Virus record (IMG/VR): IMGVR_UViG_3300037258_000517
Span: 1 to 44,643 of that record
Length of the DNA: 44,643 bases
Source of the DNA: a virus
Strand: one strand, 5' to 3'
A program made the position numbers and the translations under genes. A model generated the notes under the pieces. That model had not been told where the DNA came from. It did not search any database and saw only the letters and a program-made list of their open reading frames with translations. Position 1 is the first letter of the stretch, and each line of letters begins with the position of its first letter. Below, one piece after another: positions 3,801-43,187 of the stretch.

Positions 3801-3956
3801 TTACGGGTTTCCTCCTCGACAACATCCTTCTGCGATGCCCCATACCAGCCGCTAGGCGATGGATCGGGGGTGGCGGCTGGCGCAGCCTCCTGCATAAACT
3901 CGCCGCAGGTAGCGCAGCGCATCCAGTCGCGATACAGCTTCTCCCATTTGTGAACA
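3773..3956 (-). pseudogene. 3' part of a 64-codon CxxC gene interrupted by the IS
   Basis: Minus-strand coding sequence from the IS left junction down to TAG at 3773-3775. It contains KLYRDWMRCATCGEF, with a CxxC zinc-type pair, and a Pro/Ser-rich tail. Removing the element (3957-6526) and one copy of the 8-bp duplication joins it in frame to the 19-nt 5' piece at 6527-6545. The rebuilt gene has exactly 65 codons including the stop (MSDCVHKWEKLYRDW...WDKS) and adds an upstream Cys-x-His. It is probably a small zinc-ribbon protein. As present, the gene is inactivated. Confidence 0.8.
3949..3956. repeat. Target-site duplication, left copy
   Basis: TGTGAACA directly flanks the left end of the element and is repeated exactly at 6527-6534. 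Eight bases is the duplication size known for the IS1595 family. Confidence 0.85.
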
Positions 3957-3981
3957 GGGAATTATGTCTCACTTGACAGTA
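3957..3981. repeat. Left terminal inverted repeat of IS
   Basis: 25 bp starting GGGAATTATGT; pairs with 6502-6526 at 20 of 25 positions. The innermost seven bases (GACAGTA) are also identical. Confidence 0.85.
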
Positions 3982-4001
3982 GAACCTCGGTGCGCTAATC
4001 T
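3973..4001 (+). promoter_or_regulatory. Transposase promoter starting within the IS end
   Basis: A perfect -35 hexamer TTGACA at 3973-3978, a 17-nt spacer and TAATCT at 3996-4001. Transcription should begin about 4008, only a few bases before the ATG at 4011, so the mRNA would be leaderless or nearly so. No ribosome site is visible. Confidence 0.65.
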
Positions 4002-4010
4002 CCAATCATT

Positions 4011-4940
4011 ATGGACGAGAAAGTAGAAGCAGGTAAGCCACTCACGACTCAGCCAAGCATGACGCTCCGTCAGCTACGCGACCGATTCAAGACGGAAGAC
4101 GATTGCAAGGTGTTTATCCGCGATAGCCGCTGGCCTGATGGCGTCCGCTGTCCGCGTTGCGGCAACGATAAGGTCTATACCCTTAGGCAACCTTGGAAAT
4201 GGCAGTGCCAGAGCGCCAAGTGCGGCAAGAAGGGCTATCGCTTCGGCGTCCTAACCAAGACGATCTTCGAGAACACCAAATATCCGCTCAGGGTATGGTT
4301 CGAAGTCGGCTATCTGATTTGCCAGTCCAAGAAAGGTATGAGCGCCCTACAGCTACATCGTCAAATCGGTAGCGGCGATTATCGCACTGCTTGGTATATG
4401 GTTCACCGTTTCAGAGCGGCGATGCAAAACGAAGAATTCAAGCAGCTAACAGGCGAAGTTGAAGTTGACGAAACCTATGTCGGGGGCAAGGAAAAGAATC
4501 GCCATTGGAACAAACGCCAGCACAAGAAGGGCGGACCTCGCACGTTCGGCAGCGTCGGCGGGGTCGGCGCCATCGCGCGCAAGGGCAATGTCATAGCCCA
4601 AGTAATCGAGAACCTGAGCGCCGATACCCTGAGCACCTTTGTCGAGAAGGCCGTAGCCGACAAGGTGGAATTGCTCGTTACCGACGAAGCGCGCGGCTAC
4701 AACGATCTCAAGTACTTCTATCCGCATGAAGTCGTGAAGCACAGCAGCGAGGAATACGTGCGCGGCAACGTGCATACGAACTCGATTGAATCGTTTTGGG
4801 CTTTACTAAAGCGCGGGATTATCGGGACGTACCACCAAGTCGGCAAGGCCTATCTGCCGCTGTATCTGGCCGAATTCACCTTCCGCCACAACGAGCGTAA
4901 GAATCCTGACATCTTTGAGAAATTGATTTCATCTTGCTAG
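4011..4940 (+). CDS. IS1595-family (ISXO2-like) transposase
   Basis: A 309-residue transposase. An N-terminal zinc ribbon is formed by C47/C50 (CPRCG) and C66/C71. The ISXO2-like DDE core has D153 in VEVDETYVGGK, D225 in LVTDEARGY and E260 in HTNSIESFWALLKRGI. The C-terminal YLAEFTFRHNERK block is also typical. The length matches the family and all catalytic residues are present, so it should be active. The start is set by the promoter immediately upstream. It ends in TAG and lies on the strand opposite to the phage late operon and to the two main cargo genes. Confidence 0.93.
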   Translation: MDEKVEAGKPLTTQPSMTLRQLRDRFKTEDDCKVFIRDSRWPDGVRCPRCGNDKVYTLRQPWKWQCQSAKCGKKGYRFGVLTKTIFENTKYPLRVWFEVGYLICQSKKGMSALQLHRQIGSGDYRTAWYMVHRFRAAMQNEEFKQLTGEVEVDETYVGGKEKNRHWNKRQHKKGGPRTFGSVGGVGAIARKGNVIAQVIENLSADTLSTFVEKAVADKVELLVTDEARGYNDLKYFYPHEVVKHSSEEYVRGNVHTNSIESFWALLKRGIIGTYHQVGKAYLPLYLAEFTFRHNERKNPDIFEKLISSC

Positions 4941-35262: not shown

Positions 35263-37038
35263 TCATTTCGATTTGACCCCTTTGGAACTCTTGTGCGCGG
35301 CTTTTTGCTCATCGCGAATGGCTGCGTTTTGCGCTGCCATTTTGGCTTCTTCTTGGAGGCGTTTAAGGACTTCTTGTCTATTCGGAACAGTGAGCATGTC
35401 GAGAGCGGTTGCCACATCGAGTAAGCCGAGGTTTCGCAGCATGGGAACCATATTTCTCAAAACGACGGCGCTCATCGGCTGCAAGGAAGCGGGATCCAAG
35501 AACGCGCCGTAATCGACCAGCTTTTGGCGGTCAATCGGTTTCCAATCTACGTGACCTATTCCATCAGCTTTGAAATCGACGAATTTACGCTCACTCGTGT
35601 AGTATTGCCCCATCGTACTAAACATGAGCCACGCCAGACGCTGCACGCCGGGATACATCAGGCGCGCGCGGCCGCGGGTTACTACATGGCTTTGCGCGAT
35701 GGCGCCCTCGAACAGGGGAGCGGACACGTTGCCGGCAGCTACCTTGCCCTGGCGCTCGTCGGGGAAGCCCTGTAGGCGGCGCTGCAGGGCCAGCAGCACG
35801 TCAGGCAGGGCGAACATTTGTTGCGGCATCTGGCCGGGAAATACCAGCGTCGGAGCTTCCGAGTTGGCATTCATCATCTGCACTTCGCCCGGCAGACCAC
35901 CAAAGCGCTCGGGATCTATGCCTGTAGCTTCAGACACAAACCACACACCATTATTGGTACGAATCGCATTCTCGAATAGCTGAGTGTAGAAGCGCTCGGC
36001 TAGGGTCTGAATATCCTTGGTGTAGCGCACGGGCGGCGGCGCCCAGAAGCCATAGAGCGATGGCATTCCGATAAAGCGCACGATGGGAATTTCGCCATCT
36101 AACCGCGGATTATCACCGTCGTAGAGAACGACGCCCTCGCACTCGATAATCATGCGGCCGCGCGGGTAGCGCAACTTGTAGGTCGGCTTGGCAATGCCCT
36201 CGGTCTCGAGCTTCATTACCTTGTTGTCGGGAGCAACCTTGACCACGCTGCCATCTTTGATGAATGCGGTACGGACACGAAAGCGCGCATCGCCGGGAGT
36301 GCTGGTAGTGGGAAACGCCGAAGTCATCATCTGCATCGGCCCTGACGGCACTTCCAGACCCAAGCCCAAACCGGCACGCTCGGCGGCGCTGGTCATGCCA
36401 GCGTCGGGACGCGGCATCCTCTTGCCCCTGATGCGATCGGCCTGTTCGGGCCACAACCGCTTGACCTCATCCTTCCAGTAGAAATCTTCCAAGATGCAGA
36501 ACTGCATGTTGGTTTCGTCAGTGGCATAAGGGTCGGGAAAGACGGTCTCTGGGTCGCGGAAAACGGCGGTTACGTCACCGCGGCCGAAACGGCGGTTGGC
36601 GTCGTAGCCCACCTGCATGAACGAAGTGCCGCAGAACCAGGCGGACAGTTCGGCGAGCATCAGATTGAGATTAGTGCCGCAGTCACGCCATTGGGCGCGC
36701 AGGGCGGACTCGGCGATGTTGTCCTGCTCGAGCGAGTCGAGATTCTTGCAGAGGTAGATCTGCGGCTGAATGTCGGTTACTTCGATTGACTCTTTGATGC
36801 CGAGAATCTGGAGCTCGGGGACGGAGACGCGGGGACGAAAGACCGGGGCGGTAGTGGCGTTGTTGACGAGCGTGTAGAACTCGCGCACCTCTTTGAAGAA
36901 ATCCTTCCCGAGCTGATCATTCTTCTGCGCACGCGAGATGCGTTGCATCGTATCCAGCTGATCGGTAAGACGCGCTTCGGCCTGGAGCAGTTCTTCGTAC
37001 TCGGTTTGTCTTCTAGCCCCTCTCGGTGCCGCTGCCAT
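35263..37038 (-). CDS. Portal protein
   Basis: 591 residues with strong ribosome site GGAGGAGG before ATG 37038. Region EVTDIQPQIYLCKNLDSLEQ, RDPETVFPDPYATDE and IQTLAERFYTQLFENAIRTN follow the P22-type portal layout, with a C-terminal helical barrel-like region. Located between terminase and scaffold genes as expected. Confidence 0.72.
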   Translation of the reverse strand: MAAAPRGARRQTEYEELLQAEARLTDQLDTMQRISRAQKNDQLGKDFFKEVREFYTLVNNATTAPVFRPRVSVPELQILGIKESIEVTDIQPQIYLCKNLDSLEQDNIAESALRAQWRDCGTNLNLMLAELSAWFCGTSFMQVGYDANRRFGRGDVTAVFRDPETVFPDPYATDETNMQFCILEDFYWKDEVKRLWPEQADRIRGKRMPRPDAGMTSAAERAGLGLGLEVPSGPMQMMTSAFPTTSTPGDARFRVRTAFIKDGSVVKVAPDNKVMKLETEGIAKPTYKLRYPRGRMIIECEGVVLYDGDNPRLDGEIPIVRFIGMPSLYGFWAPPPVRYTKDIQTLAERFYTQLFENAIRTNNGVWFVSEATGIDPERFGGLPGEVQMMNANSEAPTLVFPGQMPQQMFALPDVLLALQRRLQGFPDERQGKVAAGNVSAPLFEGAIAQSHVVTRGRARLMYPGVQRLAWLMFSTMGQYYTSERKFVDFKADGIGHVDWKPIDRQKLVDYGAFLDPASLQPMSAVVLRNMVPMLRNLGLLDVATALDMLTVPNRQEVLKRLQEEAKMAAQNAAIRDEQKAAHKSSKGVKSK

Positions 37039-38453: not shown

Positions 38454-39224
38454 CTAAACTCCTCTGAGGGGATCTTCTGCTAAAGGCATACGCATACCTT
38501 CGAGTACCATGAATTTCTCTCTTAGGCGTGCGCTGGGCTCGCTCTCGAAGAAAGGAAAGGCCGGCTGATCCTTTTCGTTCCGGGTCATTACGTTGGAAGT
38601 ACGATTGGCCTGCTTGGGCGGTGGATAGTCGCTGATGGCAATCGCCGCCAGGGCCGTCGCGATGAGCAGATCGTCGTGGCCTTTGGTGACTTCCCAGCGC
38701 AACAACGGATCGTCGCGCATCGCGTTGCCCATCTGGGAGACCACGCGAGGATCGCGGATTTTGAGAAATCCGCCGCCCACGCTCTCGCGCATTACGACCA
38801 GCAGTCGCTGGCGGGATTTCCAGGTGGTCTCGTAGCCGAGCGTGGGGGTGCGTCCGGGACGCTGGCCCAGCTTGTCGTCGCGGCCTTTCCAGATGTACCA
38901 GTTAGAGTAACGGTAGTCGTCGCGCAAAAGCTTGTTGACATGCGAGCCGTCGCCGCCGGTCACCTCTAGATTCATCATCGCGCGGTTGTAGAAGAGACCG
39001 AGCAAGTTGAGCGTTTGCGCGAATGGCTCTACGCCTCGACGTTCAGCAAAACTAAAGGCCATCTCGCCGGTGTTGCCATTAAAGGCTACCGCTGCGCTAA
39101 AATCTCCCTCTACTTTACCCCTGGCCGCGTCCGCCCCGATATAATACTTGTCTCCTACTATCGGATATTCCCAAATATGTAACGGCGAGTGCTCGCCGGT
39201 CCCCCGTCGCAACTTAATGGCCAT
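38454..39224 (-). CDS. terL: Large terminase, C-terminal nuclease part
   Basis: 256 residues from ATG 39224. HSPLHIWEYPIVGDKYYIGADAARGKVEGDFSAAV opens the RNase-H-like nuclease, with D in GADAARG and GDFSAAV; HDDLLIATALAAIA near the end gives the last acidic pair. In intact terminases this follows the ATPase domain in one chain. Here it is a separate ORF, coupled through an 11-nt overlap to the small NUMOD4 gene. Confidence 0.75.
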   Translation of the reverse strand: MAIKLRRGTGEHSPLHIWEYPIVGDKYYIGADAARGKVEGDFSAAVAFNGNTGEMAFSFAERRGVEPFAQTLNLLGLFYNRAMMNLEVTGGDGSHVNKLLRDDYRYSNWYIWKGRDDKLGQRPGRTPTLGYETTWKSRQRLLVVMRESVGGGFLKIRDPRVVSQMGNAMRDDPLLRWEVTKGHDDLLIATALAAIAISDYPPPKQANRTSNVMTRNEKDQPAFPFFESEPSARLREKFMVLEGMRMPLAEDPLRGV

Positions 39225-39426
39225 TGATATTCTCAATGTGAGTCCACGTCACGGCCTGACGTGCGTGCCAAATGGTTGAATGGGCGACGTTAAATCGTTT
39301 CGGAAGTGTACGCTTTTGGACTTGAAATGGCTTGAGCTTTTTGGTGACGCCCCGACGATGGCTGGAATAAACGTCCCCCTGGTCGCTAACAAAATATCCG
39401 GGTGCAAAAGGAATTTCCTTGATCAC
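39214..39426 (-). CDS. Degenerate NUMOD4-HTH homing-endonuclease-like gene
   Basis: 70 residues from GTG 39426, with AGGAG upstream. EIPFAPGYFVSDQGDVYSSHRRGVTKKLKPF matches NUMOD4. After it comes TLPKRFNVAHSTIWHARQAVTWTHIE, the HTH tail that closes many HNH homing endonucleases. The HNH catalytic core that normally lies between is absent. It overlaps the ATPase gene as GTGA and the nuclease gene by 11 nt. Confidence 0.65.
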   Translation of the reverse strand: MIKEIPFAPGYFVSDQGDVYSSHRRGVTKKLKPFQVQKRTLPKRFNVAHSTIWHARQAVTWTHIENINGH

Positions 39427-40400
39427 GCCGCCTCTCCTACGTTTTCGATGTCGCCTCGGAAGATCGGCTTCCGGCGACTGGCGTCCTCCGCCATCTTCAT
39501 CTCTAAGCTGTTAAAAGCCGGATCGCCCGTCACGGTGAAAGCTTCATCGGCCGTACTAGGAAATTCGGCGTGAAAAACTTCAACATAGTCGTGGCACAGG
39601 TTAGGAATAGCCCAGCGGCGCCAGGAGAGTTGCGCGTAGGTGCATTTGTGAAACTTGACTAGCTCCTTTTCTTCCGCATCGAGGTTGGTCAGTTTCACGT
39701 CGGTCATATCGGGGTCGCGCTGGTTGCGGGGATCCAGATGCCAAGGAATAAAGATCGGAGTGAAGTCGTTCTTGCCCTCGACCGCATCCATCCAATGCTC
39801 ATAGAACGCCTGCCCCACGTCGACCTTGCCGTTAGCCGTCGATTCGATACTAACGATTGTTTGGGGCTGATGGACGACGGTATTGAGCAAGGCGGTAAAG
39901 GCATCTTCGGCCTGTTCGTAGAAGGCGGCTTCCGACAGTAGCAGAGCGGTAAGCGTCAGACCGCGCGCACCTTCGACGGTCTTGGCGGTAGCCAGCGATA
40001 GCACGCTCTCACCCTCGGCATGGGGGAACCGCAGTTCATGTTGGGTGCGGTAATCGCCATAGGGGATGTTGAAGTCGCCTAGGATGGTTTGGTGGGCATT
40101 GCGTGCAGCCTGGAAGATCGCTTTGGCATTCTTGGCGCGATGCGCCACGGTCAATGCGTTGGCGTTGGCAAAGGCCACACAATGCACTGAGTTTAAGATG
40201 CTGTAGAGGGTCGAGAAGCCGACGCGGCGGGCCTTTAAGTTGATCGTCCAGATCGGACGGTTCTTGTCCTGGAGCTCGATCATTTTGGCTAGGGCGCGCT
40301 GCTGTGGAGGATTCAGGGAAAAGGGGATCGTGCGCGACGGATGGTCGATGTCTTGGATCCTAAACGAGTCGAAGTTAACGGCGCGCAGGTTTAGACGCAT
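39423..40400 (-). CDS. terL: Large terminase, N-terminal ATPase part
   Basis: 325 residues. LNPPQQRALAKMIELQ, Walker A-like NLKARRVGFST (about 53-63), the Q/coupling region TVEGARGLTLTALLLSEAAFYEQA with the Walker B acid, and STANGK are all present. The ORF stops at DIENVGEAA where other terminases run on into the nuclease. Confidence 0.8.
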   Translation of the reverse strand: MRLNLRAVNFDSFRIQDIDHPSRTIPFSLNPPQQRALAKMIELQDKNRPIWTINLKARRVGFSTLYSILNSVHCVAFANANALTVAHRAKNAKAIFQAARNAHQTILGDFNIPYGDYRTQHELRFPHAEGESVLSLATAKTVEGARGLTLTALLLSEAAFYEQAEDAFTALLNTVVHQPQTIVSIESTANGKVDVGQAFYEHWMDAVEGKNDFTPIFIPWHLDPRNQRDPDMTDVKLTNLDAEEKELVKFHKCTYAQLSWRRWAIPNLCHDYVEVFHAEFPSTADEAFTVTGDPAFNSLEMKMAEDASRRKPIFRGDIENVGEAA

Positions 40401-40518
40401 AGCGCTTTGTCCAACTGTGCCAGATAGTCAGGTGCGGATGGGTAAAGATACCTCGGCCAAAATCGTCCCTAAATCGTAAACTCCCGCGACGACGATGCCC
40501 TAAGCGTAGAGCGTTCAT
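40375..40518 (-). CDS. Small basic ORF upstream of terminase
   Basis: 47 residues, ATGA-coupled to the preceding gene, and overlapping the ATPase start by 26 nt. Arg/His-rich (LGHRRRGSLRFRDD). Reality uncertain. Confidence 0.4.
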   Translation of the reverse strand: MNALRLGHRRRGSLRFRDDFGRGIFTHPHLTIWHSWTKRYASKPARR

Positions 40519-41000
40519 GCGTGAGAGAACTTGGAGTGCTGGCGCTCGAGTGCGGTCTGCTTCTCGGTAGCCATGATGCCCTGAATCACGGCATAGCAGG
40601 CAGGACTACAAGCTCTCAGCACGCGGATGTTGTTAGCAATCAGGGGGTCGTGGAACGAGAGCTCGCCGAAGTGCCTGATATTGCCGAAGGGGCGGGCGCA
40701 CTTGGGATTGCCACAGAACTCGCCCGAGCGCTTGTCGACGATAATACGCAGGCGATTGGCGGCGCGTTCCTTGGCCTCATCGATGATCATAATGGCGCGA
40801 CGCAGATACGATTCACTCTGTTCCTGCCACTGGGTTGCGCGTAACGACTCGAGCGGGTCGTAGTCGGTCGGGTGCTGGAGCTCCACTACGGCGGGGAGGT
40901 GCTTGCGCTCTTCCTTCTTGCGAGCGCGGCCGGCCTTCATCTTTTCAATCTGGGCGGCGCGCGCCTCTGGCGTCAGCGTATTAAACCAAGGCTCAGCCAT
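40515..41000 (-). CDS. Zinc-motif protein, small-terminase candidate by position
   Basis: 161 residues. Charged N-terminal helices (PEARAAQIEKMKAGRARKKEERK) and a central helix (AIMIIDEAKERAANRLRII) are followed by CGNPKCARP and RACSPACYAV, which together form a zinc-type four-Cys set. Immediately upstream of the large terminase; this position suggests a small-terminase or packaging role but no fold is recognised. Confidence 0.42.
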   Translation of the reverse strand: MAEPWFNTLTPEARAAQIEKMKAGRARKKEERKHLPAVVELQHPTDYDPLESLRATQWQEQSESYLRRAIMIIDEAKERAANRLRIIVDKRSGEFCGNPKCARPFGNIRHFGELSFHDPLIANNIRVLRACSPACYAVIQGIMATEKQTALERQHSKFSHA

Positions 41001-43063: not shown

Positions 43064-43115
43064 TGCTATGGCCATACCTAAATATGGGATTTATTCCTAT
43101 GGCAACAAGGGTATA

Positions 43116-43187
43116 GCCGACAAGCCGAGTCGAACGGCTAACCTGCGGTTTACGATACCGCTGCTCTACCTGTTGAGCTATGTCGGC
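43116..43187 (-). tRNA. tRNA-Thr (anticodon CGT)
   Basis: A 72-nt canonical cloverleaf: acceptor GCCGACA/TGTCGGC, D stem GCTC/GAGC, anticodon stem GCGGT/ACCGC with loop ATCGTAA, T stem AGCCG/CGGCT with loop TTCGACT. CCA is not encoded; bases after the acceptor read TATACC. Confidence 0.92.

Follow-up and report, generated by a model that had tools for sequence, protein, structure and literature searches.

The large terminase of the virus studied here is split into an ATPase ORF and a nuclease ORF, and these two genes probably provide a working enzyme made as two chains, which was split once in the ancestor of seven phages. The window, by which we mean the whole stretch of DNA analysed, corresponds to one complete virus entry of IMG/VR (IMGVR_UViG_3300037258_000517) with a length of 44,643 bases. 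The original prediction had described a terminase divided in this manner around a degenerate homing endonuclease and proposed that it might work as a two-chain enzyme. The division is confirmed, and the two-chain enzyme is retained as the best reading, in which function is inferred.

The three ORFs of the window

All three predicted ORFs are present. They are located on the minus strand in the order ATPase (39423..40400, 325 aa), middle ORF (39214..39426, 70 aa) and nuclease (38454..39224, 256 aa), whereby stops and starts overlap. The start/stop coupling that had been described is likewise found: the ATPase stop and the GTG start of the middle ORF share GTGA, and the stop of the middle ORF and the nuclease ATG share 11 nt (ATGGCCATTAA). 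An AGGAG within the ATPase gene (39434..39438, minus strand) probably serves the middle ORF as ribosome-binding site. The coordinates given originally imply a nuclease start at an in-frame TTG (39236), but the ATG at 39224 coincides with the nuclease starts of the relatives and is the likelier start.

A portal protein gene is located downstream of the terminase (35263..37038, minus strand; Pfam P22_portal, 1.2e-7), and portal relatives occupy the same position in L007, L008 and L087. The arrangement is not due to chance, given that both outer ORFs are intact domains for which relatives exist and that a P22-like portal gene comes after them. Directly upstream of the ATPase lies an unassigned gene (40515..41000, minus strand). 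L007 has a weak match to its product, likewise on the upstream side of the ATPase (31% over 80 aa, E 1.7e-6). The window also contains a tRNA gene (43115-43187, minus strand; Rfam, 62.9 bits).

The best solved relative of the ATPase is T4 gp17 (phmmer, E 1.1e-5), and the protein matches phrog_9 'terminase large subunit' (1.3e-5). The nuclease matches phrog_38407 (1.3e-7) and phrog_24361 'terminase' (1.4e-7). Neither is matched in Pfam or NCBIfam. In an alignment of five sequences K56/R58/G61/S63/T64, S156-E157 and S187-T188-G191 of the ATPase are invariant. We take these residues to be the Walker-type, acidic B and coupling motifs, and with them the ATPase has the equipment of a T4 gp17-type packaging ATPase. 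The deviant Walker motif K-x-R-x-x-G-x-S-T is common to the window and its fused relatives. In the nuclease, D32, E87 and an HDD motif align with the T4 gp17 triad D401/E458/D542 (PMC3012670) and form an RNase H-like D/E/D set. What the window does not have is both TerL domains on one hinged polypeptide, as stops separate the two ORFs.

When joined, the two halves give a single continuous blastp alignment with the TerL of Roseobacter phage CRP-7 (E 1.6e-35, query 4-544) and continuous alignments with Vibrio phages 252E42.2 (2.4e-28) and douglas 12A4 (5e-20). The break falls into a linker of variable length between '...KPIFRGDI' and 'SPLHIWEYP'. The joined chains have complete domains and motifs, as expected of a gene in pieces. 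No segment is absent in the alignment of both ORFs with intact terminases; missing segments had been named beforehand as the mark of a dead gene.

The middle ORF matches Pfam NUMOD4 with an E of 0.041, which is under the curated cut-off, and phrog_59 'HNH endonuclease' with 6.8e-6 in two stretches. Taking both matches together we consider the NUMOD4 motif as present. Scanned apart, the N-terminal part corresponds to phrog_59 positions 141-171 and the C-terminal part to 250-276 (weak alone, E 0.16). The positions between 171 and 250 have no counterpart in the ORF, and it is this region which presumably holds the HNH core. Judging from these matches, the ORF is a NUMOD4 + HTH homing-endonuclease relic without a catalytic core, in agreement with the original prediction of an insert that had lost its HNH centre.

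Split relatives and the content of the gap

Searches of viral contigs for close relatives with single window proteins returned nothing; alignments were needed as queries. Scans based on alignments found six IMG/VR records that are about 55% identical to the window in both halves (L199, L200, which equals L007, and L201 to L204). Each of them has the two halves as separate ORFs, and the break falls into the same loop as in the window. The gaps between the ATPase and nuclease matches measure 346, 477, 524, 1120, 1264 and 1298 nt, compared with 201 nt in the window. All members of the group are metagenome contigs and none is a cultured phage. Scanning genome contigs with an ATPase alignment of five rows yielded 32 loci, the best of them 34% identical and none from the group of seven.

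Our census comprises 320 locus entries, with some contigs entered twice and one entry being that of the window itself. A single open frame is found in 198 entries. Fifteen entries are split and represent 8 distinct records, namely the seven of the window group and L009. The remainder shows the ATPase only (83 entries), the nuclease only (22) or neither (2). Among the 83 ATPase-only entries 76 continue in frame, 5 run into the end of the contig and 2 terminate early; among the 22 nuclease-only entries 7 are open far upstream, 9 run into the end of the contig and 6 start close by. Several candidates were set aside. In L223 and L238 the part that seemed absent goes on in a different frame, so they are not regarded as splits, and L089 was not counted as it lies at a contig edge. 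Another locus, L255, is a fused terminase with an in-frame, intein-like insert of about 1 kb in its ATPase part (about 3830-4845); the insert starts with Cys and ends with His-Asn, which we assume to be an intein motif.

The break itself is uniform. R310, K311, P312 and G316 of the ATPase tail are invariant in the seven split records, and the N-termini of their nucleases coincide. In L202, L203 and L204 the nuclease start and the preceding gene overlap by 8 nt, a single base separates the two in L200, and L199 and L201 have no ATG for the nuclease and require TTG or GTG. ATPase and nuclease are in different frames in five of the six relatives and in the same frame in the window.

A sequencing or assembly error is the least credible source of such a break. 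The authors of the phiPDS1 study blame the codon table or an assembly issue for a comparable case (PMC10773633), and we find a frame change in phiPDS1; here, in contrast, seven contigs carry different coding genes in the gap. phiPDS1 was also looked at as a further case of a split and set aside; its frame change comes without a gap gene. Fusion by stop read-through or frameshifting was rejected in view of gaps of 201-1298 nt that differ in length and frame. Stops and separate starts likewise dismiss an intein in the window gap.

The gap could alternatively be a self-splicing intron or its remnant, removal of which would restore one frame and one chain. There is precedent, as the terminase of Campylobacter phage IBB_35 is reported with an intein and an intron (PMC3322345) and ICP1 terL is described as spliced (PMC10448857); moreover the ATPase and nuclease of the window share a frame. 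The halves are nevertheless in different frames in five of the six relatives, and the nuclease is provided with a separate start, which lies at the end of the preceding gene or overlaps it. The gap gene of 118 aa in the relatives is under purifying selection, and the window gap of about 200 nt is nearly all coding. The Rfam intron families gave no match in the window region (E<=10), in nine sources (gathering level) and in eight loci (E<=1), a search that reaches those introns which Rfam recognises. Hence the spliced intron, named at the outset as a possible counter-finding, is not supported, and a gap gene which the relatives share is conserved coding sequence. We regard the intron as improbable.

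A tree of 72 representatives was built on joined ATPase and nuclease. The seven split records group as a single clade (SH-aLRT 100) surrounded by fused relatives, and the clade is recovered on the nuclease alone (SH-aLRT 99). Since there is one clade and the nuclease N-termini and ATPase tails are aligned at the same break, a single ancestral split is the simplest assumption.

Selection was estimated according to Nei-Gojobori for pairs among the six relatives; the window itself has no close relative. The dN/dS amounts to 0.054-0.115 for the ATPase (13 of 15 pairs with finite dS), 0.047-0.114 for the nuclease (9 of 15) and 0.077-0.271 for the 118-aa gene (14 of 15). As dS is often above 1 and near saturation, the most reliable values are those of the least saturated trio, L202-L204, with 0.054-0.098 for the two halves. 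Both halves are under purifying selection among the six relatives. The shared split in one clade together with this selection indicates that the split is old and that both chains were retained. It is accordingly hard to believe that the terminase is the dead gene of a decaying or defective phage. The gene is indeed broken, and splitting T4 gp17 is reported to abolish translocation (PMC3012670), but seven records retain both halves with all motifs, dN/dS is only 0.05-0.11 among the six relatives, and the stem branch of the clade (0.81) resembles that of a fused group (0.79). For the window alone a dead terminase keeps some probability.

The content of the gap is not uniform. A gene of 118 aa is present in the gaps of all six relatives (6062-6421 in L202, with equivalents in the other five that are 57-84% identical to the L202 copy). 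A scan for this gene matched only these six records; the window is without it. Its product is predicted to fold as alpha-beta-beta-beta-alpha (pLDDT 80.9). The model has no Foldseek match at E<=0.001, and its best VIA Z is 8.1, about the level which the tool calls 'common'. The gaps of L200, L203 and L204 hold an additional gene of about 200 aa, the order of the genes differing. L007 has a gap gene of 51 aa (4041-4196) with a 43% identical copy at 552-710 of the same contig (E 2.9e-9), which suggests a duplication into or out of the gap.

The window relic was searched in the gaps of the six relatives using tblastn. The best hit has an E of 0.059 over 11 aa on the opposite strand, and no relic is found. 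The relatives with a full HNH gene at the split site, which the original prediction had asked for, are not present among the loci fetched. Its claim that a homing endonuclease caused the split is thereby not supported: the six nearest relatives are split alike without a detectable relic and hold other genes in the gap, so the relic need not have been the cause. It may have entered a terminase gene that was already split, and it is one of several different genes found in the terminase gap.

A homing endonuclease could still have made the split in the common ancestor, having been replaced later in the six relatives and having decayed in the window, which leaves the two-chain outcome unchanged. 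The relic occupies precisely this gap and overlaps the genes on either side, and homing endonucleases are described as having split Aeh1 nrdA and T4 gene 60 (PMC2988022). On the other hand the relic is found in none of the six gaps of the relatives, the genes there are unrelated, and for gp43 the same review allows the invasion of a gene already split (PMC2988022). We give this origin a substantial chance, albeit below even.

Position of the break in the terminase fold

The structure was modelled on a read-through of the window region that includes 67 junk residues, using an alignment of 65 rows (64 relatives), with a pLDDT of 83.1. The top match of the model is T4 gp17 (Foldseek 2.4e-21; VIA Z 26.2 over 442 residues, rmsd 16.8). 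Given this rmsd only the single domains are well superposed. The ATPase part aligns to terminase ATPase domains with VIA-align Z of 19-21, the nuclease part to the RB49 and G20c nuclease domains with Z of 24. The nuclease crystal of RB49 is matched from model residue 293 onwards (191 of 198 residues, rmsd 2.2) and that of G20c from residue 289 (181 of 188 residues, rmsd 1.7). The match to the T4 ATPase crystal ends at model residue 289 (T4 357).

Residues 289-293 lie inside the ATPase ORF, 32-36 residues before its end. The remaining C-terminal tail (residues about 293-325; 39423..39524, minus strand) has a predicted helix (298-307) and a predicted strand (314-320). Most of the tail segment should be part of what was aligned, as long low-confidence stretches were trimmed in those rows. 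From the model we infer that the nuclease fold begins within the ATPase chain, with this helix and strand as its first elements. The model also suggests that the natural break is located about 33 residues past the T4 ATPase/nuclease border and that the hinge stays covalent in the ATPase chain.

The experimental split of T4 gp17 is said to have been made at residue 360/361. When T4 gp17 is split at the linker, the ATPase and nuclease activities are described as kept and translocation as lost, and reviews call the hinge between both domains essential for packaging (PMC3012670, PMC9958956). Hence a two-chain motor cannot simply be assumed to function. The natural split could be tolerated, since a break beyond the border leaves the hinge covalent.

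Further splits, proposed mechanism and known parallels

Splits are seen outside the window clade. The ATPase ORFs of L130 and L138 end with '...TPK[VI]GMLVE..VV' and are followed, after about 375 and 443 nt respectively, by a nuclease that starts at a separate ATG. In a phage record with 52.5% identity to the L138 ATPase the terminase is fused. The AU test rejects a common clade of L130/L138 (together with L089) and the window group (p 0.005), for a grouping picked after the tree was seen. By ORFs and tree, this second lineage appears to have been split independently in the same loop. L009 is probably a further split. The AU tests do not reject a common clade of L009 with the window group (p 0.109, nuclease) or with L130/L138/L089 (p 0.535), and we thus claim two independent splits only.

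L113, L114 and L118 have a terminase ORF with the nuclease only, and in L113 and L118 an ORF of 343 aa ends about 265 nt upstream. This ORF has what we take to be a Walker-like motif, and with the nuclease it is possibly another split terminase. The three were not counted as extra splits as the 343-aa ORF, tested in L118, matches no terminase in Pfam, PHROGs or PDB.

We propose the following course of events for the two-chain terminase. A single interruption would have hit the terminase gene in the common ancestor of the window phage and its six relatives, in the loop that follows the first nuclease strand, as one clade with one break site indicates. Both halves have since been kept, each with a start close to or overlapping the preceding gene, as the sequences show, while the gap would have gained and lost passenger genes; the passenger in the window is the core-less endonuclease relic. 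The ATPase chain, with hinge and nuclease-fold helix and strand, may then dock into the nuclease chain and drive it as in a one-chain motor. Such a reassembly is conceivable with a break away from the hinge, as the ATPase chain retains hinge, helix and strand. A more far-reaching version, which we consider rather doubtful, is that the two-chain motor evolved more than once via one permissive loop, that the gap is a slot for genes and that the 118-aa protein is a third, dedicated terminase part in the sister clade.

If the two-chain reading is true, packaging may not need the covalent ATPase-nuclease link thought to be essential. A clade that has kept its split terminase through long divergence makes this need directly testable, and where the break lies suggests a concrete explanation for how the natural split could work although the T4 split failed. 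Moreover an endonuclease relic that is a mere passenger of the gap would warn against taking every such relic as the splitting agent.

A literature search, followed up in part, returned no report of a natural two-gene terminase arrangement. SEA-PHAGES labels reportedly exist for separate genes of the terminase ATPase domain and nuclease domain, which would mean earlier annotation.

Several parallels are known for the individual features. Aeh1 nrdA (mobE) and the T4 topoisomerase gene 60/39 (mobA) are described as essential phage enzymes made as two chains around a homing-endonuclease gene, the Aeh1 enzyme having been shown to be active (PMC2988022). The window differs in that the enzyme is a terminase, the endonuclease is without a core, and relatives are split without any endonuclease. 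Closer in this respect is the DNA polymerase 43A/43B of Aeromonas phages 25 and 44RR, where, according to the same review, the gap content differs between relatives and the endonuclease may have come second; it is another enzyme, however, and its chains are reported as co-purified and active, whereas those of the window are known from sequence (PMC2988022). ICP1 terL and the terminase of Campylobacter phage IBB_35 are also interrupted by mobile elements, in ICP1 an intron shown by RNA and in IBB_35 an intron and an intein (PMC10448857, PMC3322345), but the window has no signs of intron or intein. Parabacteroides lytic phage phiPDS1 is reported to have the two terminase domains in two CDS (PMC10773633); it differs by a frame change in the region before the annotated nuclease CDS and has no gap gene. 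T4 gp17 finally has the same two domains, motifs and fold as the window terminase. In contrast it is one chain, and its artificial linker split reportedly lost translocation (PMC3012670), whereas the break in the window lies about 33 residues further on. The split terminase of the window would be a testable exception to the result of the T4 gp17 linker split.
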